Positions 30,860-50,237 of a stretch of DNA of 64,000 nucleotides are shown in pieces. Position numbers and translations under genes: made by a program. Under the pieces are notes generated by a model, which saw nothing but the letters and a program-made list of their open reading frames with translations, did no database searches and was not told the DNA's origin. Every line of letters starts with the position of its first letter. Position 1 is the first letter of the stretch. The stretch comes from Gemmatimonas sp. GTDB lineage: Bacteria; Gemmatimonadota; Gemmatimonadetes; Gemmatimonadales; Gemmatimonadaceae. The DNA lies in contig NZ_JAPZSK010000005.1 in the NCBI RefSeq assembly GCF_027531815.1, positions 1 through 64,000 on the forward strand. Direction: 5' to 3'.

Positions 30860-31534
30860 TCACGTGCCCATCATGACGCTCCACCCAAGCATCACGCCTA
30901 CGACCGTGCTCGCCATCGCGGCCAGCACACGTATCGACGTCGCCCAGTGCCGGCTCTTCGCGACGGCGAGACCAGCGAGACCGCTCACAAGCAGCGACAC
31001 CACACTCATCCCGCCTATCGTGCCAATTCCGAACGCCAGCAGATAGGTGAGTTGCGCCTGGATAGTCGAGGCCGCAGCCACCAGGAGCACGATCATGGCA
31101 CCACTGCCCGCGAGACCATGCGCAATGCCAAAGGTAAAGGCGCCACGCGCACTCCGCATTCGGTCGGGGTGCTGGTGTGCGATGTGCGCCGAATGGGCAT
31201 GCGCGTGCGCATCGCCCAATCCGCGCCGGTGCCGTCGCGCTTCTGCCATGAGCGTTGAGACGCCAAGGAAGATCAGCATGGCCGCTACCACCAACTCGAA
31301 CAGGGCGGCAATCGCAGGCGGCATACGAATGCCGAGCACCGCAATGACCATCGTGACGACGGCGACGCTCGCCGTGTGCCCGGCCCCCCAGGACAGCCCG
31401 AGCATGGCCGCCGAGCGCAGGCCGCGTTCGCGCGTAGCCAGCATGCTCACCGCAGCGAGATGATCGGGCTCGAAGGCGTGACGGAAACCAACCAGGAAGC
31501 CGATGCCGATGAAGGCAACATGACCGAAGTTCAT
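30860..31534 (-). CDS. Nickel permease (NiCoT/UreH-like family)
   Basis: This 224-aa membrane protein probably imports Ni2+ for the hydrogenase active site. It has the NiCoT helix II signature H19-AFEP-D24-H25 (HX4DH) and a second conserved GAGHTA motif near residue 51. About six membrane segments are visible. A cytoplasmic loop is rich in histidine (DAHAHAHSAHIAHQH, about 108-122), typical for nickel carriers. Its start overlaps the hypF stop by four bases (ATGA), so it is translationally coupled to maturation. The protein is shorter than classical HoxN. Confidence 0.85.
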   Translation of the reverse strand: MNFGHVAFIGIGFLVGFRHAFEPDHLAAVSMLATRERGLRSAAMLGLSWGAGHTASVAVVTMVIAVLGIRMPPAIAALFELVVAAMLIFLGVSTLMAEARRHRRGLGDAHAHAHSAHIAHQHPDRMRSARGAFTFGIAHGLAGSGAMIVLLVAAASTIQAQLTYLLAFGIGTIGGMSVVSLLVSGLAGLAVAKSRHWATSIRVLAAMASTVVGVMLGWSVMMGT

Positions 31535-33858
31535 GACGGCTCCGCCTGCGCGGCAACCATCGCCTGCCCCAGCGCGATCCCGCCATCGTTGGGTGGGACA
31601 GCGCGGTGCGTGAGCACGGTGAAACCTGCCTTTTGCAAACGTTGAACAGTAAGTGTGAGCAAGAGCACGTTCTGAAACACTCCGCCGGTGAGTCCGACTG
31701 TCTGCGTTTCTGTCATGTCGCGCACGCGTCGCGCGACGGTCACGATGGCCTCGGCCAGGGCGCCGTGCACATCCAGCGCGATACTCCGGCGGTCGCGTCC
31801 TTTCCGAACGTCATACACAACCTGACGCCAGAAATCATGCAATTCCAGCTGCATTGGGGCCTCGTTGCTCTCCGGCTCAATAACAGCCATTGGATAATGC
31901 CGACCGACGCCGAGTGGCGCCTGCGCGGCCAGCGCCTCGAACTCGATGGCCGCCTGGCCCTCGTAACTTACCGACTGCCGGACACCACAGAGTGAGGCGC
32001 ATGCGTCAAGCAGGCGCCCCGCCGAGGTGGTGACAGAAGTGTGCAGGTGCCGTGCGAACTGCTGCCGCAGAATACGGCGCGTTTCCTCGTTGAGCGCACG
32101 TACCGGCGCCAGGTCGTCGGACCACGGAATACCGACGGTGTGAAGATGCGCCAAAGCAAGGCGGGACGGGTGCCTCACCCCCATATCGCCGCCAGCCAGC
32201 TGGGTCGGCGCGAAGTGGGCGACCCGGGTGAAGCGGCGATAGTCCGCCAGCAGGAACTCTCCGCCCCAGATGGTGCCGTCACTGCCATAACCAGTACCAT
32301 CGAAAGCAACGCCCAGTACCTTCGTGTCACCAATGAGCCCGTGCTCCGCCATCAGCGATGCCACGTGCGCGTGATGATGCTGCACGCGAACGAGCCTGAG
32401 CCCGCGCTCGGTGGCGAATCGGTCGGCCCATATTGCACTGCGGTACACCGGGCTCTGGTCCGCCGCCACCAGCTGTGGGCGTACTTCAAAGAGTTGCTCG
32501 AGGTGCGTTACCGCACGTGTCAAGGCCCGCTCAGTCTCAAGATTCTCCACATCGCCAACGTGCGGCGAAAGGAAAGCGTACGAGTCACGAACAAAACAGA
32601 CGGTCGCCTTCAATTCCCCGCCCACAGCCAGCACAGGGCGCATTGGGGCCGGCAGGGATACGGGATAGGGCGCGTACCCGCGCGACCGGCGAATCGGGAG
32701 CTCCGCACCAAGAGCAACGCGCATGACCGAATCATCAGCGGGCGCGTGAATCGGTCGGTCATGGCAAAGCATGCCATCCACAAGCCCGGCGAATCGCTGC
32801 TGCGCATCGCTGGTGGTGAAAGCGATCGGTTCGTCAGCGAGGTTTCCGGAGGTGAAGACCAGGGGCCCCGCTTCCGTTAGCAGGTGGTGCACTGGAGCGT
32901 AGGCGAGCATCACCCCAATCGTGGTCTGCCCTGGAGCAACCGAGGGCGAGAGGCCGGATTCGAGGCGGCGTTCCAGCAGCACTATCGGATGTGCCGGTGA
33001 GGTGAGGAGTGCGGCCTCTGCCGGCGACATCCTGGCCAGCAGGCCAGCCGCCGCCACGTCGCGCACGAGGACCGCCAGCGGCTTTTCTGGGCGGCGCTTA
33101 CGCTCCCGCAGCCGCCGAACAGCGGCGTCCTGGTCAGCGCGACAGGCAATGTGAAAGCCACCAATCCCCTGCACCGCGATGATCCCGCCCTCCAGCAGTA
33201 CAGCGACCGCGGCAGCGAGCGCGTGCTCCCCTCGGAGGCTGAAGGTGCCCGAGATACCATCGCACCACGACAGCGACGGCCCACAGTCAGGGCAGGCATT
33301 CGGCTGGGCATGAAAGCGTCGATCGGCGGGGTCGGCGTACTCGGTCGCACACGACGCGCACATCATGAAGCCGGCCATCGTCGTCGAGGCCCGGTCGTAC
33401 GGCAGCGCCGTGACGATGCTGTAGCGCGGTCCGCAGTTGGTACAGTTGATGAACGGGTAGCGGTGCCTGCGATCGGCGGGATCGTACAGCTCGCGCAGGC
33501 AGTCGGCACAGGTCGCCACATCGGGGGCGACCGGGGTGATGTGCGCCGGGTCACGTCGGCTATCGACAATGGTAAAGCCGGACGCGCCGGTGATGGGCAG
33601 TGGCGCGTCGTCGATGGCATCGATGCGAGCGAGCGGTGGGGCGTCGGTCCGCAGCGCGTCGAGAAAGCTGGCGATCGCCCCCAGGTCGCCTTCCACTTCA
33701 ATAAAGACCCCGTCCGAGTCGTTGCCCACGAAACCACCCAGACGGAATCGGCCCGCCAATCCATAGACGAACGGCCGGAAACCCACCCCCTGCACGCCGC
33801 CACGGACACGCACGGCCCGCCGCGCGACGGCGGCCAAAGAAGAGGAAGTGCCGAACAT
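31531..33858 (-). CDS. hypF: Hydrogenase maturation carbamoyltransferase HypF
   Basis: HypF uses carbamoyl phosphate and ATP to make the thiocarbamate on HypE, the precursor of the CN ligands at the active-site iron. The 775-aa product has an acylphosphatase domain (VRGGVQGVGFRPFVYG, about 18-33) and zinc motifs CADC, CTNC, CASC and CPDC. A YrdC-like domain (KRRPEKPLAVLV) and the Kae1-like carbamoyltransferase domain with HHHAHVASLMAEHG follow. The ATG at 33858 is used; a GTG at 33888 would add ten residues. It is divergent from the main hydrogenase operon and coupled to the nickel permease. Confidence 0.95.
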   Translation of the reverse strand: MFGTSSSLAAVARRAVRVRGGVQGVGFRPFVYGLAGRFRLGGFVGNDSDGVFIEVEGDLGAIASFLDALRTDAPPLARIDAIDDAPLPITGASGFTIVDSRRDPAHITPVAPDVATCADCLRELYDPADRRHRYPFINCTNCGPRYSIVTALPYDRASTTMAGFMMCASCATEYADPADRRFHAQPNACPDCGPSLSWCDGISGTFSLRGEHALAAAVAVLLEGGIIAVQGIGGFHIACRADQDAAVRRLRERKRRPEKPLAVLVRDVAAAGLLARMSPAEAALLTSPAHPIVLLERRLESGLSPSVAPGQTTIGVMLAYAPVHHLLTEAGPLVFTSGNLADEPIAFTTSDAQQRFAGLVDGMLCHDRPIHAPADDSVMRVALGAELPIRRSRGYAPYPVSLPAPMRPVLAVGGELKATVCFVRDSYAFLSPHVGDVENLETERALTRAVTHLEQLFEVRPQLVAADQSPVYRSAIWADRFATERGLRLVRVQHHHAHVASLMAEHGLIGDTKVLGVAFDGTGYGSDGTIWGGEFLLADYRRFTRVAHFAPTQLAGGDMGVRHPSRLALAHLHTVGIPWSDDLAPVRALNEETRRILRQQFARHLHTSVTTSAGRLLDACASLCGVRQSVSYEGQAAIEFEALAAQAPLGVGRHYPMAVIEPESNEAPMQLELHDFWRQVVYDVRKGRDRRSIALDVHGALAEAIVTVARRVRDMTETQTVGLTGGVFQNVLLLTLTVQRLQKAGFTVLTHRAVPPNDGGIALGQAMVAAQAEPS

Positions 33859-33982
33859 GGCGGGAGTCTGGGAATCAGGGACGACCACGGGAATAGCAAT
33901 ATCACGCTATAACCAGCCGCCGTACCGGTGCGTACCGTGTGTGAACATGGCAGGCACCCCAGCAGGAATGGAGAGATCAATC
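33859..33982. promoter_or_regulatory. Divergent control region of the hydrogenase locus
   Basis: This 124-base gap separates hypF (minus) from the main operon (plus). It contains the most AT-rich patch nearby (33890-33912), with TATAAC (33908-33913) as a candidate -10 for the plus operon. No clean -35 partner is evident. GGTGCGTACC near 33928 is a short imperfect palindrome. GGAGAG at 33970-33975 is the ribosome binding site of the DUF1641 gene. Confidence 0.45.
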
Positions 33983-34765
33983 ATGGCGTTCGGGCTGGCA
34001 GACGGGAACACCGAGCGACAAGAGCAGCTACTCGCTCGCTTGTCGGATCCGCAGACGGTGGAGTCGTTGAACAAGCTCCTCGATCGGATGGACATCATCG
34101 TTTTCGCGGTGGAGGCGCTGGATGGCTTTCTCAGCCGAGCGGACACCATTGCCGACAACGTATCGGACTCGGTAGGTGATATCCGGACCCTGATGACAGA
34201 GTCTGGGACGACCGGGCTGATGGAGAAGCTGCCGCAGCTGGCGCGCGCCGGCGCCCAGGTGGCTGACATCTCGGCCACGCCGGCCTTTCAGCGGCTGGCC
34301 AGCTCGGGGCTGATCGACCAGCTCGGAGAGCCCAAGACGATCGAAACGGTGCGCGCCCTCATTGCCAAGCTCGATCTGGCGGCCTTTGCACTGGAGTCGA
34401 TGGACGGCTTCCTGCGCCGTGGTGACGAGATCGCCGAAGGGATCGCTGACGGCGTAAACGACCTGCGCAATGCCGGCTCGACGCTGGACCTGGCGGAGAT
34501 GCGGCGGACGATGCAGTCCCTGCCCAAGCTGGTACAGGCGGGAAACGAGCTGGTCGCATCCGGTATCCTCGACCCGGTGGTGGTCGGACAGCTGGCCGAG
34601 GTGGGCCACCTGTTCGCTCGGGCCTACAGCACCGCAAAGGAAACCCATCCCCGGCAGCATGGTATGATCGGACTGGCCTTGAAGCTCCGAGACCCGGACG
34701 TGAATCGTGCCATCAATTTCGCGCTCCGTCTCGCCAAGGCGTTCGGGAAGAACCTCAACAAGTAG
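33983..34765 (+). CDS. DUF1641 protein with an internal duplication
   Basis: This 260-aa helical protein belongs to the DUF1641 group that occurs with hydrogenases. Residues 23-69 and 117-163 are a clear duplication: both read PxT(V/I)E followed by a helix, then FAxEx(L/M)DGFLxR(A/G)D and a helix ending in D(I/L)R. It has no signal peptide or cysteines. It opens the main operon. Amphipathic helices could mediate membrane or complex docking. HucM, which tethers the related mycobacterial enzyme to quinone, has no counterpart visible here, so this protein may play a similar linking role. That is inference. Confidence 0.8.
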   Translation: MAFGLADGNTERQEQLLARLSDPQTVESLNKLLDRMDIIVFAVEALDGFLSRADTIADNVSDSVGDIRTLMTESGTTGLMEKLPQLARAGAQVADISATPAFQRLASSGLIDQLGEPKTIETVRALIAKLDLAAFALESMDGFLRRGDEIAEGIADGVNDLRNAGSTLDLAEMRRTMQSLPKLVQAGNELVASGILDPVVVGQLAEVGHLFARAYSTAKETHPRQHGMIGLALKLRDPDVNRAINFALRLAKAFGKNLNK

Positions 34766-34776
34766 GACCGTTCGGC

Positions 34777-35124
34777 ATGCACGAGCTTGGACTGGCCCGT
34801 GGGATCGTGGACCTCGCTCAAGCGGCCGCCGTAGAAGCGGCGGCCGCGAAGGTGGCCGCCGTGCATGTGCTGGTCGGGCGTCTGGCTGGTGTTGAAGCTG
34901 GCGCCCTGCTGTTTTCGTTTGATATTGCCGCCGAGGGCACCCGCGTTGCCGGTGCACGGCTGGTGATCACCGACGTTCCGGTGGCGATTTGGTGTATGAC
35001 GTGCAATGCTGAGCGGGAGCTGGCCGGGGTCAACCGCTTTCGCTGCCCCGTGTGTGAAACCCCGAGCGGCGACATTCGCCGCGGCAGAGAACTGGAAGTG
35101 TCGTCAATCGAGGTGGAGTTGTGA
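34777..35124 (+). CDS. hypA: Hydrogenase nickel insertion protein HypA
   Basis: HypA binds nickel and delivers it with HypB to the hydrogenase large subunit precursor. The 115-aa product starts with the nickel-binding M-H2-E3 motif and has a zinc site C73-MT-C76 and C90-PV-C93, as in the family. The length is standard. The ATG at 34777 is 11 bases after the DUF1641 stop. The gene overlaps hypB by four bases (GTGA), so HypA and HypB are co-translated. Confidence 0.95.
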   Translation: MHELGLARGIVDLAQAAAVEAAAAKVAAVHVLVGRLAGVEAGALLFSFDIAAEGTRVAGARLVITDVPVAIWCMTCNAERELAGVNRFRCPVCETPSGDIRRGRELEVSSIEVEL

Positions 35125-35807
35125 GCGGAACACGGATCGTTGAGGTGCGCGCTGGCATCCTCAAGAAGAATGACGAGCTGGCGCGGGCGCTGCGGCAGCG
35201 GTTTGAGATGGCGGGCGTCTATGTGGTCAACCTCGTCTCCAGTCCCGGTACCGGGAAAACCGCGCTGCTGGAACGGACGATGCGTGAACTGGTCGCGGGT
35301 GGGTCACGCGTGGCGGCCCTCGTGGGTGATCTCGAGACCGACAACGACGCCCGTCGTCTGGCCCGCAGTGGTGCGGACGTCCGGCAGATCAACACACACG
35401 GACGCTGCCATCTCGAAGCGGAGATGATCGGCGACTTCCTCGATGCGTGGGATCTCTCGCAACTGGACTATCTGTTCATCGAAAACGTCGGCAACCTGGT
35501 CTGCCCATCCAGTTACGACCTGGGCGAAGCCACCCGCGTGGTCTTGCTCTCGGTGACCGAAGGGGAAGACAAGCCACTCAAGTACCCGACGATCTTCAAC
35601 TCGGCAGACGTGGCGATCATCACGAAGATGGACCTGGCCGAGGCATGCGACTTCGACGCGGCAGCGGCGCAGGCCGCCATCGAGGCGGTACGGCCGGGGA
35701 TGCGGATTCTTTCGCTCTCATCCAAGACCGGCGTGGGCATGGGTACCTGGCTCGATGCGCTGTATTCGGGTCGCCGCACCCTGGCGGCCACGAATACGCC
35801 CGCGTGA
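35121..35807 (+). CDS. hypB: Hydrogenase nickel GTPase HypB
   Basis: HypB is the GTPase that drives nickel insertion. The 228-aa product has the P-loop SSPGTGKT (40-47). It has the metal-site GRCHLEAEMI, the conserved ENVGNLVCPSSYDLGE, and the G4-like ITKMDLAE. The N-terminus is short and has no histidine-rich nickel store, so nickel storage must be elsewhere; the His-rich loop of the permease is one candidate. The GTG start overlaps hypA by four bases, and its own stop overlaps the next gene by three bases. Confidence 0.95.
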   Translation: MSGTRIVEVRAGILKKNDELARALRQRFEMAGVYVVNLVSSPGTGKTALLERTMRELVAGGSRVAALVGDLETDNDARRLARSGADVRQINTHGRCHLEAEMIGDFLDAWDLSQLDYLFIENVGNLVCPSSYDLGEATRVVLLSVTEGEDKPLKYPTIFNSADVAIITKMDLAEACDFDAAAAQAAIEAVRPGMRILSLSSKTGVGMGTWLDALYSGRRTLAATNTPA

Positions 35808-37528
35808 CGGTACGGTCGGCAGAGGTGACGCAGCCTCCGCTGCCGTCAGCGGTACCCGCTGGGACAGCGACGGCCGCCGCCGTCACCGAGGCCTTGTACG
35901 AGTGCGCGCGTGCATCCGTCAGCGAGCCCGATGTCCTGGCGCTGGCCCGGGCGTTGGCGGCCGCCCTGGTTCGGACGTTTCGTGCGGATGACGTCATCGT
36001 CGCCGCAGTCGTGGACAGCACCCTCTCCAGCAAAGCGCGCATCCGGCGCAAGATGCTGGTGTCGGGTCCTTCCCTGACTCGTGAGGAACGGACCTTCATC
36101 GACTGGCTGCTGCGACACCGGCAACCCTTCGCGGCGCATGCCGACAGCCCCCGAGTGGCGCGTGCACCGGCGTCACCCTGGCCCGACGTCATCGCCGTTC
36201 CGGCGCTGCACCACCAAGGGCACCCCGTCGCGCTCCTGCTGGTGGCGGCGCGATGCGGACACGGGAGGTTCGGGACGCCCGACCTGCGCGTGCTCGAGAC
36301 GATTGCGCAGCAGGCAGCCGTCGCGTTCGATCGGGCGCAACTGCTGGCGCAGCTTGAGAACTGGGCGCGCGGCCTCGAAGCGCTCTTCAAGTTCAGCGCG
36401 GCCGTGAGCAGCGAACGCGATCCGGTCAGCCTGGTGCGCGATATGGCGGAGCATGCGGCGCGTTTGCTCAAGGCCGACGGGGGCCATGGCGGACTCGTCG
36501 TCCCAGGGGACGGTCCCGAAGAGAACGTCATGGAGTCGTTGGCATACTGGTGCGACGGCATGTGGCTGGAGCGGCGGCGCCGTTGGCCCCGGAACGTCGG
36601 TATCCCGGGGGTGGTGCTGGAAACCGAGTTTCCGTACCTCTCTGCCGACTACGCGCAGGATCCCGCGCGCGAGCCGCCCGACGACCTCGGGGAGATCATG
36701 TACGCGATTGCCGTGCCGATCAGGACCGGCGCGGACGTGGTGTTGGGATTCTTCGAGTTGCACCGTCGGGACAGCAACGGCCCCTTCAACTGGCAAGATG
36801 CGGCCTTCCTGGAGTCGGTGGCCAACATGGCGGCGGTTGCCATTGAGAATGCCCGCCTGGGGGCTGCGCTGGCGCACAAGACGCAGGAAATGCGCGCGCT
36901 CTCTGCCCGTCACGTAATGCGGCTCGAGGAGGAGCGGCAGCACATTGCCCGCGAGCTGCACGATGAGGCCGGTCAGGCACTGGTCGGGGTCAAGCTCTCG
37001 CTGCAGGCGATGGGACGGCTGATGCCGACCGAAGTGCCGGCGCTGCGCGAGCAGCTCGCGCACCTCCGGACGCAAGTGAATAACGCCGCCACCCGCCTCA
37101 AGGTCCTGGCCCGCCGCCTTCGCCCGCCGACGCTCGATCGGCTCGGTCTCGACATGGCGCTGCAGCAGCTGGCCCACGAGAGCGGTGAGCATTTCGGATT
37201 CGAGATCCACCTGCTGATGCAGCCACTCGACGAACGCCTGCCCACCGAGCTGGAAACCGCGCTCTTTCGCGTGACGCAGGAAGCGCTGACGAACGTGGCA
37301 GCCCACGCCGAGGCGACGCGTGTCGAGATCCGCGTGGCCATCAGCGACCGCAACACGCTCGAGCTGTGCGTTGCGGACAACGGCGTGGGGTTCGACCCGA
37401 GCGAACGATCGTCCGGTCTCGGGTTGCTGGGCATGCGCGAGCGCATCACGATGCTGGGGGGCCAGTTTGCCGTCACCTCCGCTCCCGGCGAAGGCACCAC
37501 CATTCGGGTCACGGCACCTATCGTATGA
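35804..37528 (+). CDS. NarL-type sensor histidine kinase with two GAF domains
   Basis: This 574-aa soluble kinase is the likely sensor for the hydrogenase locus. It has two GAF-like domains (about 20-185 and 195-350). A HisKA_3 dimerisation box has the phospho-acceptor His near 386 in ARELHDEAGQALVG. The ATPase domain has TQEALTNVAAHAEAT and ADNGVGFDPSE. There is no signal peptide or membrane segment, so it senses an internal signal, possibly redox or a small ligand through GAF. The GTG at 35804 overlaps the hypB stop. It overlaps the regulator gene by four bases (ATGA), so the pair is coupled. Confidence 0.88.
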   Translation: MTVRSAEVTQPPLPSAVPAGTATAAAVTEALYECARASVSEPDVLALARALAAALVRTFRADDVIVAAVVDSTLSSKARIRRKMLVSGPSLTREERTFIDWLLRHRQPFAAHADSPRVARAPASPWPDVIAVPALHHQGHPVALLLVAARCGHGRFGTPDLRVLETIAQQAAVAFDRAQLLAQLENWARGLEALFKFSAAVSSERDPVSLVRDMAEHAARLLKADGGHGGLVVPGDGPEENVMESLAYWCDGMWLERRRRWPRNVGIPGVVLETEFPYLSADYAQDPAREPPDDLGEIMYAIAVPIRTGADVVLGFFELHRRDSNGPFNWQDAAFLESVANMAAVAIENARLGAALAHKTQEMRALSARHVMRLEEERQHIARELHDEAGQALVGVKLSLQAMGRLMPTEVPALREQLAHLRTQVNNAATRLKVLARRLRPPTLDRLGLDMALQQLAHESGEHFGFEIHLLMQPLDERLPTELETALFRVTQEALTNVAAHAEATRVEIRVAISDRNTLELCVADNGVGFDPSERSSGLGLLGMRERITMLGGQFAVTSAPGEGTTIRVTAPIV

Positions 37529-38181
37529 CACTGGAACGGCCTACGGTCCTGCTGGTCGATGACCACGCCCTGGTGCGCCGCGGCCTCGCACTCCTCTTGG
37601 CCAGCGATGGACGGTATCGGGTGATCGCGGAAGCGAGCAACGGCGCGATGGCGCTGGACCTCATCGCCCGGCACCGGCCGACGTTGGTCCTCCTCGACCT
37701 GTCGATGCCCAAGCTGGATGGCCTTGGGGCGTTGCGCCAACTCCGCAAGATGCCGCGTCGACCGCGTATCCTGGTGCTGTCGATGTACGACGATGACCAG
37801 TTTGTCGCCCAGGCCATGAGCGATGGTGCCGACGGCTACTTGCTGAAAGATGCGATGGACGACGAGCTCTTCGAGGCGATGAACGCGGTGCTGGCGGGGC
37901 AGCGGTATCTGGCGTCCGGCATCAACCAGAGACGCCTGGAAAACGTCTCGGTGCAATCCAGCGACCTCACCGCGCGCGAGCGTGAAGTGCTGCAACTGAT
38001 TGCCAATGGGCAGACGACCTCCCAGGCAGCGGAACAGCTCGCCATCTCCCCGCACACGGCCACGCGGCACCGCGCGAACCTGATGCGGAAGCTGGGGGTG
38101 CACAATCAGGCCGAGCTGGTGCGGACGGCGGTCCAGCGCGGGCTGATCGTCTTTGGGCGCACCAGCAGCGGACGGGAGTGA
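37525..38181 (+). CDS. NarL/FixJ-family response regulator
   Basis: This 218-aa regulator has a receiver domain with D12-D13 and phospho-acceptor D58 in LLDLSMPKLDG, and the conserved K in YLLKDAM. A LuxR-type helix-turn-helix follows (about 150-210; LTAREREVLQLIANGQTTSQAAEQLAIS is the start). It is coupled to the upstream kinase. It ends 153 bases before hupS, and this pair sits between hypB and the structural genes, so it is the obvious candidate to control the hydrogenase promoter. A palindrome GATTGtgctgCAATC at 38281 may be its site. Confidence 0.88.
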   Translation: MTLERPTVLLVDDHALVRRGLALLLASDGRYRVIAEASNGAMALDLIARHRPTLVLLDLSMPKLDGLGALRQLRKMPRRPRILVLSMYDDDQFVAQAMSDGADGYLLKDAMDDELFEAMNAVLAGQRYLASGINQRRLENVSVQSSDLTAREREVLQLIANGQTTSQAAEQLAISPHTATRHRANLMRKLGVHNQAELVRTAVQRGLIVFGRTSSGRE

Positions 38182-38280
38182 AGCCCGGCTGTCCGGGGTC
38201 CGGGGCTGGCCACGGTGACATGCCGCCGGAGCTCACCCGACTAGCCAGAACATGCTATTGCTGGCCTTTGTGCACGGGCC

Positions 38281-38295
38281 GATTGTGCTGCAATC
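38281..38295. promoter_or_regulatory. Palindrome upstream of hupS
   Basis: GATTG (38281-38285) and CAATC (38291-38295) form a dyad with a 5-base centre, 40 bases before the hupS ATG. A second small dyad AACCT/AGGTT (38308-38320) lies closer. The 153-base gap carries no gene. It could be the binding site for the NarL-type regulator. No sigma-54 pattern was found. Confidence 0.4.
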
Positions 38296-38334
38296 AACGG
38301 ATGGCTCAACCTCGAAGGTTCTGGAGAGGACGCA

Positions 38335-39306
38335 ATGGCGACCGTGTTGTGGCTGCAGGGCGGTGCGTGTTCGGGTAACACGATGTCGTTTCTGAATGCT
38401 GAGGAACCGACCGCGGTCGACCTCGTGACGGACTTTGGAGTCGACCTACTGTGGCACCCGTCGATCGGGATGGAAATGGGCGAGAACGCCCAGCGCCTCT
38501 TCCATGACCTGGCCTCGGGCAAGAAGCAGCTCGACATCTTCGTCTTCGAGGGAACCGTCATCCTCGGCCCCAACGGAACGGGGCGGTTCAACATGTTCGC
38601 TGACCGCCCGATGAAGGACTGGGTGGCCGAGCTGTCGGCGCAGGCTGGCGCCGTCGTGGCCATTGGCGACTGTGCCTGCTGGGGCGGTATCCCCGCCACG
38701 GAACCGAACCCGGTGGACAACGTCGGCCTGCAATACCTGAAGCGAAAGCAGGGCGGATTCCTCGGCGCCGACTTCGTGTCGAAGTGGGGGCTCCCGGTCA
38801 TCAACATTCCCGGCTGTCCGGCGCATCCGGACTGGATCACGCAGATCCTCGTGGCGATCGCGGCCGGCCGTGCCGGCGACATTGCGCTCGACGAACTGCA
38901 GCGCCCGCAGACGTTCTTCAAGACCTTCACGCAGACCGGCTGCACGCGGGTGCAGTACTTCGAGTACAAGCAGAGTACCGTGGAGTTCGGTCAGGGCACG
39001 CGTCAGGGGTGCCTCTTCTACGAAATGGGCTGCCGCGGCCCAATGACGCGCTCTCCATGCAACCGCATCCTCTGGAACCGACAGAGCTCCAAGACGCGCG
39101 CCGGCATGCCCTGCACCGGCTGCACCGAACCCGAGTTCCCGTTCCACGAGCTCAAGCCCGGCACCGTGTTCAAGACGCAGAAGATCAGTGGCACGATCCC
39201 GAAGGAAGTACCGACCGGCTCCGACCACGTGTCCTACATGGCACATGCCGCTGCCGCGCGCGTCGCAGCGCCGAAGTGGTCGAAAGAAGACATGTTCGTG
39301 GTCTGA
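38335..39306 (+). CDS. hupS: Group 2a [NiFe] uptake hydrogenase, small subunit
   Basis: The small subunit carries the iron-sulfur relay that takes electrons from H2 oxidation. The 323-aa product has no Tat signal, so the enzyme is cytoplasmic or on the inner side of the membrane. Its start MATVLWLQGGACSGNTMSFL is a group 2a signature. C12-S-G-N15 replaces the usual CxxC of the proximal [4Fe-4S] cluster, which matches the all-[3Fe-4S] chain known for Huc. Other ligands sit in GDCACWGG, GCPAHP, GCTR, GCLFYEMGC, PC and CTGCTEPEFP. GGAGAGGA lies 5-12 bases before the ATG. Confidence 0.96.
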   Translation: MATVLWLQGGACSGNTMSFLNAEEPTAVDLVTDFGVDLLWHPSIGMEMGENAQRLFHDLASGKKQLDIFVFEGTVILGPNGTGRFNMFADRPMKDWVAELSAQAGAVVAIGDCACWGGIPATEPNPVDNVGLQYLKRKQGGFLGADFVSKWGLPVINIPGCPAHPDWITQILVAIAAGRAGDIALDELQRPQTFFKTFTQTGCTRVQYFEYKQSTVEFGQGTRQGCLFYEMGCRGPMTRSPCNRILWNRQSSKTRAGMPCTGCTEPEFPFHELKPGTVFKTQKISGTIPKEVPTGSDHVSYMAHAAAARVAAPKWSKEDMFVV

Positions 39307-39336: not shown

Positions 39337-40968
39337 GTGGCAACGTCAACACTGCCCATGCCGGACAAGATGCGCATCAGCCCGCTCGGACGCGTCGAGG
39401 GTGACCTCGACCTGCGCGTCACGCTGCGAGATGGTGTTGTCACGGATGCGTGGACGGAAGCATCGATGTTTCGCGGGTTCGAAATCATTCTTCGCGGCAA
39501 GGACCCGCAGGCCGGCCTGATCGTCACACCACGCATCTGCGGCATCTGCGGCGGTTCGCACCTGTACAAGGCGTGTTATGCCCTCGACACCGCGTGGCGC
39601 ACGCACGTGCCGCGCAACGCAACGCTCATCCGCAACATCGCGCAGGCCTGCGAGACACTGCTGAGTATCCCGCGCTGGTTTTACGCCCTGTTCGCGATCG
39701 ACCTCACCAACAAGAATTACGCCCACCTGCCGGAATACGACGAAGTGGTGCGCCGCTTCGCCCCGTTTGTCGGCACCAGCTATGAGCCCGGCGTCACGCT
39801 CTCAGGCAAACCAGTCGAGATCTACGCCCTGTTCGGTGGACAGTGGCCACACTCGAGCTTCATGATCCCCGGTGGCGTCATGTGCGCCCCGACGCTCTCT
39901 GATGTCACCCGCGCGATCGCGATCCTCGACTACTGGAAGCGCGAATGGCTGGAGAAGCAGTGGCTTGGGTGCTCGGTCGAGCGCTGGATGGAGATAAAGA
40001 GCTGGAACGACCTGTTGGTGTGGGCCGACGAGAACGACAGCCAACGGAATTCCGACTGCGGCCTGTTCCTGCGCTTCGCCTTGCGGGCGGGCCTCGACAA
40101 GTTTGGCCAGGGATGCGGCTCGTTCATCGCCACCGGTACCTACTTCAAGCCGGAACTGTACGAAAACCCGACCGTCGATGGCCGGAACGCGGCGCTGATC
40201 AGCCGCTCCGGCATCTACGATGGCAGCAAGAAGGCGTTCCATGACTTCGACCACCTTAACGTACGCGAAGACATCACGAACTCCTTCTACCGTGGCCAGA
40301 GCCTGCTGCACCCGTGGCAAGGCGAGACCGATCCCATCGATCCACTCGATGGCCACAAGCAGGGCAAGTACTCGTGGGCCAAATCGCCGCGCTACAATGT
40401 GCCGAATGTGGGGACCATGCCACTCGAGGCCGGCCCGCTCTCGCGCCAGATCATCGCCGGCCGCGCCGCTGACGCCAGCCATCAGGACTACGATCCGTTC
40501 ATCCTCGACGCGGTCAACACCATCGGTCCGAACGTGCTGACCCGTGTCATGGCCCGCATGCACGAAGCGCCCAAGTACGCCGTCTGGGTGCGTCAGTGGC
40601 TCGATCAGCTCGACCTGCACGACAAGTTCTATACCAAGCCCATTGAGCACACCGAAGGGCGCGGTTTTGGTGCCACGGAAGCGGCCCGCGGCTCGCTGTC
40701 AGACTGGATCGTGATCAGCAATGGTCGCATCGAGAACTATCAGGTGATCACACCGACCGCGTGGAACATCGGCCCGCGCGATGGCACCGGCATCAACGGA
40801 CCCATGGAGCAAGCGTTCATCGGTGCGGAAATCAAGGATCCCACCGATCCGGTCGAGATGGGCATCGTGGCCCGCTCGTTCGATTCGTGCCTGGTGTGCA
40901 CGGTACACGCCTACGACGAAAAGACCGGCAAGGAACTGTCGAGCTTCCGTATCGGCGAGATGGGATGA
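39337..40968 (+). CDS. hupL: Group 2a [NiFe] uptake hydrogenase, large subunit
   Basis: The large subunit binds the NiFe(CN)2CO centre that splits H2. The 543-aa product has the L1 motif RIC68-GIC71-GGSH and the L2 motif C518-LV-C521-TVH524. The protease should cleave after H524, releasing 19 residues. Both cysteine pairs are intact. Sequence around L1, for example SPLGRVEGDLDLRVTL, fits the cyanobacterial/mycobacterial (Hup/Huc) group rather than group 1. The start is GTG 39337, 30 bases after hupS, and it overlaps the protease gene by four bases. Confidence 0.96.
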   Translation: MATSTLPMPDKMRISPLGRVEGDLDLRVTLRDGVVTDAWTEASMFRGFEIILRGKDPQAGLIVTPRICGICGGSHLYKACYALDTAWRTHVPRNATLIRNIAQACETLLSIPRWFYALFAIDLTNKNYAHLPEYDEVVRRFAPFVGTSYEPGVTLSGKPVEIYALFGGQWPHSSFMIPGGVMCAPTLSDVTRAIAILDYWKREWLEKQWLGCSVERWMEIKSWNDLLVWADENDSQRNSDCGLFLRFALRAGLDKFGQGCGSFIATGTYFKPELYENPTVDGRNAALISRSGIYDGSKKAFHDFDHLNVREDITNSFYRGQSLLHPWQGETDPIDPLDGHKQGKYSWAKSPRYNVPNVGTMPLEAGPLSRQIIAGRAADASHQDYDPFILDAVNTIGPNVLTRVMARMHEAPKYAVWVRQWLDQLDLHDKFYTKPIEHTEGRGFGATEAARGSLSDWIVISNGRIENYQVITPTAWNIGPRDGTGINGPMEQAFIGAEIKDPTDPVEMGIVARSFDSCLVCTVHAYDEKTGKELSSFRIGEMG

Positions 40969-41510
40969 CTCCGGAGGTGCGTGCGCCATCCGTTTCGGCG
41001 GTACATCACGAGGCGTCGGGCCCGGTGAAGGATGCCGGGCCCGTTCGCACGTTGATCATCGGATGTGGAAACATCCTGCGCGGCGACGATGCCGTTGGGC
41101 CGGTGTTCATTCGTTCCCTGTGGGAACGCGGCGTGCCCGCTGGCGTGCGCTGCGCCGATGGCGGCACGGGTGGCATGGATGTCGCCTTTCAGATGCGAGG
41201 TGTGCCGCACGTCATCCTGGTGGACGCCTGTCGTAGCGGCTCGGAACCCGGCGCACTGTTCAAACTGCCTGGCAGCGAGGTGGAGCATCTCCCACCGCTG
41301 GCCGGCATCAACCTGCATGCCTTTCGTTGGGACCACGCGCTGGCCTTTGCGCGCTGGCTGCTGAAAGAAGAGTACCCGAAGACCATCACGGTGTACCTGA
41401 TCGAGGGACAGCACTTCACCGTGGGGGAGGCGCTGTCGCCGGCCGTCGAGGCGTCCATGCACCGTCTGGCGGACCTGCTGCTGGCGGAGTTGCACGATGC
41501 AGCGGCGTGA
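40965..41510 (+). CDS. Hydrogenase maturation protease (HupD/HucD)
   Basis: This 181-aa endopeptidase removes the HupL C-terminal tail after nickel insertion. Family features are IIGCGNILRGDDAVGP (about 31-46), the ILVDAC strand and a late His in GQHFTVGEALSPAVEASM. Metal-binding acidic residues of the family are retained (D in RGDDAVG, D in VDAC). About 28 extra residues at the start (MTPEVRAPSVSAVHHEASG) precede the core and may be a start-site artefact. The ATG overlaps the hupL stop by four bases, and the gene overlaps the next one by 14 bases. Confidence 0.92.
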   Translation: MTPEVRAPSVSAVHHEASGPVKDAGPVRTLIIGCGNILRGDDAVGPVFIRSLWERGVPAGVRCADGGTGGMDVAFQMRGVPHVILVDACRSGSEPGALFKLPGSEVEHLPPLAGINLHAFRWDHALAFARWLLKEEYPKTITVYLIEGQHFTVGEALSPAVEASMHRLADLLLAELHDAAA

Positions 41511-43284: not shown

Positions 43285-43661
43285 TGGATATCCACGCACG
43301 GCAGCAGTTCGATTTCTTCTTCAATGCGGCCATCGAACGGTTTGTCGACCGCGTCGAGCAGCGCTGCGGGGGCCCCGTGCCGGCGCTCGAAAGGCTGCGC
43401 ACCGACCCCAATGGCGCGGGCGTTTGGCTTGAGGAGTTCACGGCCGCGCTATTCCGCGACTTTCTGCTCGACAACGTCGCCGGGTCAGCGTTCATCCTGC
43501 AGGCGCTGGCACGGCGGCCCAACACCGCCACACTCATGCCGGACATGACCGTCGAGCAGGCCATGAGCGCCATGGCTCGGAGTGCCTTCGCGGCAGTGCT
43601 GCGCATCAAGACCGACGAGCAGTTGGAGCAGCGCCTCGCGTTTCAGGTGGTGGACGAATGA
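43284..43661 (+). CDS. Hydrogenase-cluster helical protein, 125 aa
   Basis: This 125-aa protein is not recognised. It is predicted all-helical (HARQQFDFFFNAAIERFVDRV and EQAMSAMARSAFAAVLRIKTDEQLEQRL), with one cysteine near residue 28 and no signal peptide or membrane segment. The ATG at 43284 overlaps the TPR stop by one base. It is followed by NifU-Rieske with a four-base overlap. The tight coupling shows it belongs to the operon. It may be a partner or chaperone of the NifU-Rieske protein. Function unknown. Confidence 0.65.
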   Translation: MDIHARQQFDFFFNAAIERFVDRVEQRCGGPVPALERLRTDPNGAGVWLEEFTAALFRDFLLDNVAGSAFILQALARRPNTATLMPDMTVEQAMSAMARSAFAAVLRIKTDEQLEQRLAFQVVDE

Positions 43662-44545
43662 GTCAGGCCACCGCGATCCCACCAGCGAGCTCCCCCGTGA
43701 CGGCAGACTCCGAACTCGCGCTGCGCGCCAAGGCGGTGGAAGCAGCGCTCACTGACGTGAAGGGGATGCCAATTGACCACCGGACGCGCGCGGTCGCACT
43801 CAAAGATGCCGTCGAGGCCTTCCACAAGGCTGGGCTCACCCAAATCGTGCGCACCCTGAAGGCCGATCCGCGCGGAATGGAACTGCTGCTCGAACTGGTG
43901 GACGACCCGAATGTCTACGCCCTCTTTGCCATGCACGGCATCGTGAAGGCCGACTTGCGCACCCGTGTCGCCAACGTCGTGGAGACGGTCCGGCCGTACA
44001 CGCAGTCGCACGGCGGTGACGTGGAGCTGGTCGACGTGAAGGACGGCACCGTATACGTGAAGATGGCCGGTGCCTGCAACGGCTGCAGCATGAGCGCGGT
44101 GACCCTGCGCAATGGCGTCGAAGAGGCCCTCCGGGAGCAGTGCCCGGAAATCACCGCCATCGAAGTCGTCCCTAACGAGCCAACGGCCGCCGTGATCCCG
44201 CTGGTGGCACTCCAGCGCGGCGGCGCCAACGCCGGCTGGCTCTCCGGACCAGCGGTGACCGACCTGACGGAAGGGAAGCCGTTCCGTATGGAGCTCACGA
44301 ACGGCAAGAGTCTGGTGTTGCTGCGCTTCGAGAACCAGATCTCCGCCTTCCACAACGCGTGCGCCCATCAGGGGCTACCAATTGATGGGGGGATGGTGGA
44401 CATGGAATCGCGAACCATCACCTGTCCGTGGCACGGCTTTCGTTTTGATTGCCTCTCCGGCGAATGCCTTACCGCACCGCAGGCACAACTGGAGCAGGTC
44501 CCCGTCCGCGTGGACGGTGGCCAGGTCATGGTGCGCCCGGAATGA
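43658..44545 (+). CDS. NifU-domain and Rieske-domain fusion protein
   Basis: This 295-aa fusion has an N-terminal helical part (1-95), a NifU C-terminal domain (about 100-175) with C140-NG-C143, and a Rieske [2Fe-2S] domain (about 195-295). The Rieske ligands are C235-A-H237 and C256-PW-H259. The NifU part may carry or deliver an iron-sulfur cluster and the Rieske part may transfer electrons. Since no cytochrome b or separate electron carrier is encoded in the locus, this protein is a plausible link between hydrogenase and respiratory chain. That role is inferred. It is coupled to neighbours on both sides. Confidence 0.9.
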   Translation: MSQATAIPPASSPVTADSELALRAKAVEAALTDVKGMPIDHRTRAVALKDAVEAFHKAGLTQIVRTLKADPRGMELLLELVDDPNVYALFAMHGIVKADLRTRVANVVETVRPYTQSHGGDVELVDVKDGTVYVKMAGACNGCSMSAVTLRNGVEEALREQCPEITAIEVVPNEPTAAVIPLVALQRGGANAGWLSGPAVTDLTEGKPFRMELTNGKSLVLLRFENQISAFHNACAHQGLPIDGGMVDMESRTITCPWHGFRFDCLSGECLTAPQAQLEQVPVRVDGGQVMVRPE

Positions 44546-48125: not shown

Positions 48126-48152
48126 CCGTCTAGCCGTGTGCGGTCCAGGCCC

Positions 48153-48177
48153 CGGCCCCGTCCGCAAGAAGGGGCCG
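48153..48177 (+). terminator. Hairpin after hypE
   Basis: CGGCCCC (48153-48159) pairs with GGGGCCG (48171-48177), loop 11 bases. It lies 28 bases after hypE. No T run follows, so it is a weak terminator candidate. Confidence 0.45.
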
Positions 48178-48257
48178 AGGTGCGGACGCGAGGACAGGTG
48201 GTCGCCGCTGGCGTGCCGTGGGTCTCGCGGCGCTCCGATTTGACTAAGTTTCGGGGT

Positions 48258-49178
<921 letters not shown>

Positions 49179-50237
49179 GTGAGCACCGCGCTGCGCATGC
49201 CCGCCGAATGGGAGCGTCACGACGCCACCTGGATTGGCTGGCCGCATCACGAGCCCGATTGGCCCGGCAAGTTCGCCCCCATTCCCTGGGTGTACACCGA
49301 AATCGTGCGGGCCCTCGGCCGGTTCGAGCGCGTGGAAATTCTTTGCCACAACGCGCAGGTGGCCGAGGAGGCGCGCGCGTGTCTCACGCTGCACGGCGTT
49401 GAGGAGGGGCAGTATCGCCTGCATCTGCAGCCCACCGATCGCGTGTGGCTGCGTGACTCGGGCGCCACCGGCGTGCACCGCGCCGACGGCAGCACCGCGC
49501 TCGTGCGCTGGGGCTTCAACGCGTGGGCCAAGTACGACAACTTCGCGCTCGACGCCGAGGTGCCGGCGCGCATGGCGGCGATCAGCGGCCTGCCGGTCAT
49601 CACCGCCGTGCGCCACGACAACGGCCAGCCGCTCATCCTCGAAGGCGGCGGCATTGAGACGGACGGGGCCGGCACACTGCTCGTGACCGAGGAGTGGCTG
49701 CTCAGCGATGTGCAGGTGCGCAACCCGGGGTACACCCGCGGCGACTACGAGCGCGCCTTTCGCGAGTATCTGGGCATCACCCACACCATCTGGCTGGGCG
49801 AAGGGTGCGTGGGTGACGACACGCACGGACACATCGACGACATCGCCCGCTTCGTCGCGCCGGGTGTCGTGGTGCTCGCGCACGAGGAAGACGCGAGCGA
49901 CGAGAACCACTCGCGCTCGCTCGGCAACCTGCATCGCCTGCAGCGGGCGCACGATGCAGGGGGCCGGCCGCTCGAGGTGGTCACCCTGCCCTTCCCGCGC
50001 GCCGTGATCATGGACGGCATGCGCCTCCCGGCCAGCTACGCGAACTTCTACGTAGCCAACGGCGTATGCATAGTGCCCACGTTCAACGACCGGAACGATC
50101 GGCGGGCGCTCGATATCCTTGCCGATCTCATGCCCCGGCACGAGATCGTGGGTATTCATGCGGTGGATCTGGTGTGGGGGCTGGGCACACTGCACTGCCT
50201 GTCGCAGCAGCAGCCCGCAGCACGGAGCGGATCATGA
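49179..50237 (+). CDS. aguA: Agmatine deiminase
   Basis: AguA converts agmatine to N-carbamoylputrescine, the step before AguB. The 352-aa product has the guanidine-group hydrolase fold with WLRDSGAT, EGGGIE, GDDTHGHIDD and the catalytic C340 in GTLHCLSQQQP. The start GTG at 49179 is immediately after the aguB stop. Its stop overlaps the next gene by four bases. The order amidase then deiminase makes a complete agmatine to putrescine route. Confidence 0.95.
   Translation: MSTALRMPAEWERHDATWIGWPHHEPDWPGKFAPIPWVYTEIVRALGRFERVEILCHNAQVAEEARACLTLHGVEEGQYRLHLQPTDRVWLRDSGATGVHRADGSTALVRWGFNAWAKYDNFALDAEVPARMAAISGLPVITAVRHDNGQPLILEGGGIETDGAGTLLVTEEWLLSDVQVRNPGYTRGDYERAFREYLGITHTIWLGEGCVGDDTHGHIDDIARFVAPGVVVLAHEEDASDENHSRSLGNLHRLQRAHDAGGRPLEVVTLPFPRAVIMDGMRLPASYANFYVANGVCIVPTFNDRNDRRALDILADLMPRHEIVGIHAVDLVWGLGTLHCLSQQQPAARSGS

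Follow-up and report, generated by a model that had tools for sequence, protein, structure and literature searches.

The window considered here is a stretch of 64,000 nucleotides from Gemmatimonas sp. (RefSeq assembly GCF_027531815.1; contig NZ_JAPZSK010000005.1, positions 1 to 64,000 of the forward strand), part of a 4.31-Mb genome assembled into 27 contigs, and it carries a hydrogenase locus into which a two-component kinase-regulator pair is built. The gene order is hypF on the minus strand and, divergent from it, a rightward series of a DUF1641 gene, hypA, hypB, kinase, regulator, hupS and hupL. The kinase gene (35804..37528, plus strand; GTG start, 574 aa) overlaps the stop of hypB by 4 bp (GTGA), the regulator gene (37525..38181, plus strand; 218 aa) overlaps the end of the kinase gene by 4 bp (ATGA), and hupS starts 153 bp further on, at 38335. 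An earlier note on this DNA had described a soluble kinase with two GAF-like domains and a NarL-type regulator, overlapping hypB and each other and directly preceding hupS; these coordinates and protein types are borne out by our analysis. From comparative sequence analysis and by analogy with NarL we consider it very likely that the pair is a dedicated local two-component system, activating hup, hyp and its own operon via predicted 7-2-7 dyads.

The kinase was assigned from Pfam, hydropathy and a structural model. Pfam recognizes two GAF stretches (GAF_2, 6.7e-18), HisKA_3 (5.7e-14), and HATPase_c (8.7e-15), which by residue are arranged as GAF1 (about 24-180), GAF2 (205-348), HisKA_3 (377-444), and HATPase_c (484-572). 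The phosphoacceptor His386 lies within RELHDEAGQ, and His386, Asp387 and Gln391 are invariant in an alignment of 23 sequences. Hydropathy gives no sign of a transmembrane segment, the highest mean over 19 residues being 1.45, and thus the kinase is taken to be soluble. Its predicted structure has a mean predicted local distance difference test score (pLDDT) of 83 over the whole protein, and both GAF domains model well. The regulator, placed by Pfam and by tree, combines Response_reg (6.3e-27; 94.4 bits) and GerE (2.7e-19; 69.0 bits), both over cut-off; its receiver domain carries DDH at residues 12-14 and the phosphoacceptor Asp58, and the GerE recognition helix is SPHTATRHRANLM (residues 175-187). 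The Pfam scan gave only these two domains and no match to an AAA+ domain, and the best match in the Protein Data Bank (PDB) is NarL (1a04). The pair therefore consists of a HisKA_3 (HPK7-type) kinase and a NarL/FixJ response regulator. MctS and MctR are the best-scoring NCBIfam models for the two proteins, but both scores remain far below the curated cut-offs (143.8 bits, core only, against 700 for the kinase; 177.1 bits against 300 for the regulator).

The same arrangement is shared by named genomes from four phyla and hence is not due to chance. Among 944 genomes surveyed, HupL is found in 23 and the kinase clade in 12 (four phyla), and all 12 kinase-clade genomes also encode HupL, on the same contig and no more than about 6 kb away; four of these genomes were survey centres, picked for having both genes, and the other eight were not. 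The 295 genomes of the window's class include seven with HupL, six of which have the full-length kinase (at least 441 bits), the next best kinase match in that class reaching 151 bits and covering the C-terminal half only; G230 has HupL and lacks a kinase of the clade. The class of G296 (Bryobacter, Terriglobia; genome of locus L020) counts 200 genomes, with HupL in two and the kinase in the same two; that of G311 (Pirellula, Planctomycetia; genome of locus L030) counts 198, with HupL in four and the kinase in three of these. The corresponding numbers for the Chloroflexota (phylum of G309; 251 genomes) are ten and one. Genome-wide in 20 named genomes, kinase matches of at least 347 bits occur only at the hup locus (seven genomes), and elsewhere they do not exceed 165 bits.

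In a maximum-likelihood tree, 29 linked kinases, spanning Gemmatimonadota, Acidobacteriota, Planctomycetota and Chloroflexota, fall on one side of a branch with a support of 100 in the Shimodaira-Hasegawa-like approximate likelihood ratio test (SH-aLRT), the outsiders being 25 unlinked homologues (mostly the best-scoring one per genome) and 11 mycobacterial or pseudonocardial kinases; L017 and L094 were omitted as too short. Thirty linked regulators likewise fall on one side of a branch (support 100), and their recognition helix, ISPHTATRHRANLM, is nearly invariant across the linked clade and differs in unlinked regulators. The linked sets were chosen by nearness to hup, the 80 named loci also by a regulator identity of at least 45%, so that these trees test cohesion rather than discovery. 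Judged by the trees, linked kinases and regulators have one origin. Two candidates were not accepted as members: the pair near hup in L078 (Pyrinomonadaceae), the kinase of which represents a different type and does not group with the clade, was dropped from the alignment and counted as pairless; and G938 (Chloroflexota), where no HupL reached threshold, has an intermediate kinase match (221.7 bits) and a regulator only 35% identical to that of the window. In the planctomycete G537 (L132), the one HupL genome of the Pirellula class that lacks a kinase of the clade, hupL contains two in-frame TGA codons. The Pirellulales hup loci L029 (3438-7475) and L033 are nested among pair-bearing relatives and have neither pair nor operator; in L029, a 1345-aa open reading frame with a passenger-associated repeat occupies the place that the pair has in relatives.

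Comparison of the regulator-hupS gaps revealed a common word. In a count of all 7-mers over the 300 bp before hupS in 25 pair-bearing loci, made with no motif assumed, TGCTATT ranks first (18 of 25; maximum of 10 in 100 shuffles), and it occurs in none of 53 other upstream regions, which include short contigs with undeterminable pair status. In most lineages the full site is TACCWAG-tt-CTTGCTA-TTG; Pirellulales have TGGTATG-aa-CATGCTA, and the window has TAGCCAG-aa-CATGCTA, a dyad of inverted heptamers that forms predicted operator 1 (38242..38257, plus strand) upstream of hupS. Over 16 distinct sites, an average of 5.06 of the seven heptamer positions equal the reverse complement, against 1.85 (standard deviation 0.30, largest 2.88) in a permuted-letter control. 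With a weight matrix built minus each locus's own site, a dyad of at least 12 bits is present in 22 of 23 pair-bearing loci (Gemmatimonadota 6/6, Planctomycetota 6/6, Chloroflexota 3/4, Acidobacteriota 7/7) and in none of 43 pairless loci (among them Planctomycetota 0/3, Chloroflexota 0/10, and Acidobacteriota 0/1), the best pairless score being 5.4 bits and the lowest positive one 14.2. Fifteen of 81 loci were dropped from this test: L021 (a duplicate of L020), L027 (no hupS), and 13 with less than 3.5 kb upstream. A second dyad lies between hypF and the DUF1641 gene in all 15 pair-bearing loci examined that have this layout (scores of 11.5 to 27.3); in the window it is TAGCAAT-at-CACGCTA (predicted operator 2; 33894..33909, no strand assigned), placed between the divergent hypF and the DUF1641-hypA-hypB-kinase-regulator operon. 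The strict pattern has a single match in the 4.3-Mb genome, the one at hupS. Tolerating one mismatch adds five further places, one of which is the hypF/DUF1641 site, and a reversed control pattern gives two matches. The predicted regulon is accordingly the hup/hyp locus. Both the pair and an operator (TACCTAG-tt-CTTGCTA-TTG) are present in G039, which probably represents G. aurantiaca T-27, as the position of its hupL near 471 kb agrees with locus tag GAU_0412. Around operator 1 we also noted a larger inverted repeat, GCCAG-N12-CTGGC (38239-38265), noted likewise in the relatives L009 and L015 and not in the other lineages.

The promoter elements stand in a fixed relation to these dyads. The predicted hupS promoter (38258..38286, plus strand) has a -35 element TTGCTG (38258-38263), a 17-bp spacer, and a -10 element GATTGT (38281-38286); together with operator 1 it occupies 38242-38286, within the interval 38182-38334 that the earlier note had singled out for binding of the regulator. 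The dyad is followed by TTG, and in 17 of 23 distinct hupS promoters a hexamer with A2/T6 stands exactly 23 bp past the dyad, against at most three at any other offset. Of the 15 promoters on the DUF1641 side, 12 have a -10 at 23 bp, and of those facing hypF, 10 of 15 have one at 23 or 24 bp. In the window these are the -10-like TACCGT of the DUF1641-hypAB-kinase-regulator promoter (33933..33938, plus strand) and the -10-like CAGACT of the hypF promoter (33865..33870, minus strand), each 23 bp past operator 2. Since the -35, the 17-bp spacer and the -10 follow the dyad, its centre would lie near -43.5 to -44.5. A sigma-54 or extended -10 reading of TGCTATTG was dropped once the -10 was found fixed at 23 bp past the dyad. 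At 33856-33870, the hypF ATG comes 7 nt after the predicted -10, and the hypF message would be leaderless.

This geometry is that of NarL at two promoters of E. coli: at yeaR a single NarL-bound 7-2-7 site just upstream of the -35 suffices, and at ogt a NarL 7-2-7 site centred at -44.5 abuts the -35 and activates via the RNA polymerase alpha subunit (PMC7419079). Activation is thus the default reading here. The soluble kinase would sense a cytoplasmic cue through its tandem GAF domains and, to judge from the conserved catalytic residues, phosphorylate Asp58 of the regulator. A regulator dimer would then bind the 7-2-7 dyads that abut the -35 at the hupSL and the divergent hypF/DUF1641 promoters, and, by analogy with NarL, recruit RNA polymerase from near -44 to activate structural and maturation genes. 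Operator 2 would likewise drive the operon to which the pair belongs, so that a positive loop may be expected. The likeness to NarX/NarL at yeaR and ogt comprises the NarL-type regulator, the HisKA_3 core, the 7-2-7 form, and a site abutting the -35 with its centre near -44 (PMC7419079). In contrast, NarX and NarQ are membrane-bound nitrate receptors with a periplasmic sensor, whereas the present kinase is a soluble GAF protein with no hydrophobic segment. The NarL heptamer is TACYYMT and its regulon is global, whereas here the heptamer is roughly TRSCWWG and the predicted regulon a single locus.

The same dyads would also suit a repressor, or a dual regulator, that occludes the polymerase and is released by a kinase working mainly as phosphatase: contact of the dyad with the -35 hexamer makes occlusion conceivable, and the DxxxQ motif after the phospho-His, which we take to be phosphatase-type, is invariant in the kinase alignment. 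Such control is nonetheless quite improbable, as the dyad lies upstream of the -35 and not over the -10 or +1, the -35 is poor apart from its TTG and the -10 only moderate, as in activator-dependent promoters, and the nearest geometry on record, that of NarL at -44.5, is an activating one (PMC7419079). In a further reading, the dyad would belong to another factor, such as a global regulator or an alternative sigma factor, with the pair merely riding along in the operon and controlling other genes; the motif is a consensus site, and a hitch-hiking pair would co-occur with hupL too. The site is, however, missing from 43 of 43 pairless loci, the nested Pirellulales L029 and L033 have neither it nor the pair, its 7-2-7 layout is typical of the NarL family, and a global factor is hard to reconcile with a strict pattern that matches once in the whole genome; we regard this option as highly improbable.

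As to what the kinase senses, a DosS-like haem GAF kinase responding to H2 or O2, or a kinase informed by the hydrogenase itself, has several points in its favour: GAF2 aligns with DosS GAF-A (Z 16.9, root-mean-square deviation 2.6, 138 residues), the domain order (GAF-GAF-HisKA_3-HATPase, with a NarL-type partner) is that of DosS/DosT-DosR, and the ATPase domain matches those of DosS/DosT in the PDB. Yet many non-haem GAFs (PDE5A, PDE2A, fRMsr) match as well or better, and in GAF2 no column of residues 279-305, the expected haem-ligand stretch of DosS (approximate placement, aligned range only), has His in more than 4 of 23 sequences. His137 of GAF1 is present in 19 of 23. The kinase sequences hold no conserved Cys set for an Fe-S cluster, with only position 303 reaching 16 of 23. 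Cyclic-nucleotide binding was also considered; the tandem GAFs resemble those of PDE2A/PDE5A and adenylyl cyclase in fold, and no ligand is claimed from this likeness. The best mycobacterial kinases near huc, unlike the domain order, set the two systems apart, as they fall outside the window's kinase clade. A mycobacterial kinase gene chosen for a haem comparison (L142) did not resemble a tandem GAF kinase of the DosS type. DosS/DosT-DosR has been linked to control of the hydrogenases Hhy and Hyh in M. smegmatis, and the mycobacterial DosR system governs more than 50 genes (PMC13098282). Against an H2 sensor speak the lack of a second hydrogenase in the genome and the behaviour of hucL in G. 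aurantiaca, which did not respond to 10% H2 and fell 51-fold from exponential to stationary phase (PMC7784904). Because of this growth-phase change without an H2 response, an internal growth or energy cue appears likelier than H2, which itself is probably not the signal, and the haem, H2 or O2 sensor is unlikely. The internal signal proposed by the earlier note is consistent with a soluble GAF sensor and with the same expression data.

The pair very probably turns on the hydrogenase for feeding on air H2. In a wider picture, proposed with moderate confidence, kinase, regulator and 7-2-7 operators would form a portable cassette that Gemmatimonadota, Acidobacteriota, Planctomycetota and some Chloroflexota inherited together with their group 2a (Huc) hydrogenase. 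The regulator would be the first direct transcriptional regulator identified for Huc outside Cyanobacteria, and the cassette would read a cytoplasmic metabolite via the GAF domains and not H2, so that the use of air H2 would be set by the energy or growth state of the cell. The predicted regulator, operator and promoter are defined here to single-base resolution, in a lineage to which the cultured G. aurantiaca belongs, and consumption of atmospheric H2 by this organism has been demonstrated.

Several observations weigh against these proposals. Absence of the pair from other group 2a loci, which the earlier note had counted as grounds against its reading, does not apply to the Gemmatimonadota, Acidobacteriota and most Planctomycetota examined but holds in part for two other phyla: none of the Actinomycetota loci examined has the pair, and nine of ten HupL-bearing Chloroflexota genomes are without it. 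Evidently, a group 2a enzyme can do without the pair. The hucL of C. aggregans is under growth-phase control as well (PMC7784904), and the Chloroflexus loci L041 and L043-L045 are without the pair, so that growth-phase behaviour does not require it. The dyads of pair-bearing Chloroflexota are poorly symmetric (2-3 of 7 positions), and L063, the single miss in the matrix test, has a weak site (12.7 bits) before hypA, outside the tested regions. The HupL tree offers only two independent contrasts on supported branches (four in all); with so few we claim no phylogenetic significance, and a sign test was dropped.

The hydrogenase is of the group 2a type, judged from HupL similarity to Chloroflexus and mycobacterial loci (70-77%) and from its Rieske and NHL neighbours, which are given for group 2a hydrogenases in PMC7784904. 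To the HupL of L015 the similarity is 99%. A PF00374 search of the whole genome returned two stretches, both in one hupL, and no second NiFe large subunit; with a single large subunit, the genome lacks a sensor hydrogenase of the HupUV type. For the genes of uptake hydrogenases, dedicated two-component control is known from HoxJ-HoxA with HoxBC and HupT-HupR with HupUV, where a sensory group 2b hydrogenase works with an NtrC-type regulator. The present pair shares this dedication and differs in having no second large subunit, a NarL-type regulator, and a sigma-70-like promoter, in agreement with the earlier note's proposal of a circuit other than HupUV/HoxJA. That note's list of known regulators (HupUV/HoxJA or Fnr-type) was incomplete, as RegBA, DosST/DosR and CRP-type regulators are also listed in PMC13098282, which names the HoxJ-HoxA case of C. 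necator too. The other genes, assigned by Pfam, are hypF (31531..33858, minus strand; start probably the ATG at 33858 and not the longest-frame GTG at 33888), the DUF1641 gene (33983..34765), first of the pair-carrying operon, hypA (34777..35124), hypB (35121..35807), hupS (hucS; small subunit, 38335..39306), and hupL (hucL; large subunit, 39337..40968), all but hypF on the plus strand. Downstream of hupL follow a maturation protease (HycI/HupD type; 40971..41510, plus strand), a TPR-like protein, a NifU-Rieske protein (HucE type; 43658..44545, plus strand), an NHL-repeat protein, hypD and hypE.

In full-text searches on regulation of this hydrogenase (subscription papers lying largely outside), none of the titles and abstract beginnings retrieved pointed to a two-component regulator of group 2a hydrogenases. 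The portions of PMC7784904, PMC12342949, PMC5037454, PMC10581226 and PMC9381531 covered likewise contain none; a supplementary operon figure of PMC7784904, outside this scope, may draw the genes. For M. smegmatis huc, passages of PMC13098282 report gel-shift assays of GylR, Crp1 and Crp2 as negative and the direct regulators as unidentified in 2026.

In 11 of 25 actinobacterial loci a one-GAF kinase and a NarL-type regulator lie 3-8 kb from huc (e.g. L073:5178-7075); this HisKA_3 kinase and its regulator were rejected as orthologues, being outside the clade and with no operator there. The gene of a conserved AraC-family regulator (AraC_binding_2 and HTH_18; L073:7078-8139, minus strand) occupies the corresponding place in 24 of the 25 loci, L073 included. 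In Mycobacterium and other Actinomycetota it lies immediately before DUF1641-hupS and in divergent orientation. This protein is a candidate for the direct huc regulator in Actinomycetota. The upstream regions of L055, L072 and L075 share a palindromic word (..CAGCATGCTGTAT), the best weak match in actinobacterial hup promoter regions and possibly the site of another factor. Finally, directly after the hyp genes the window encodes a carbon-nitrogen hydrolase and a PAD_porph-family protein (48138-50237), which presumably resemble an agmatine-to-putrescine pair.

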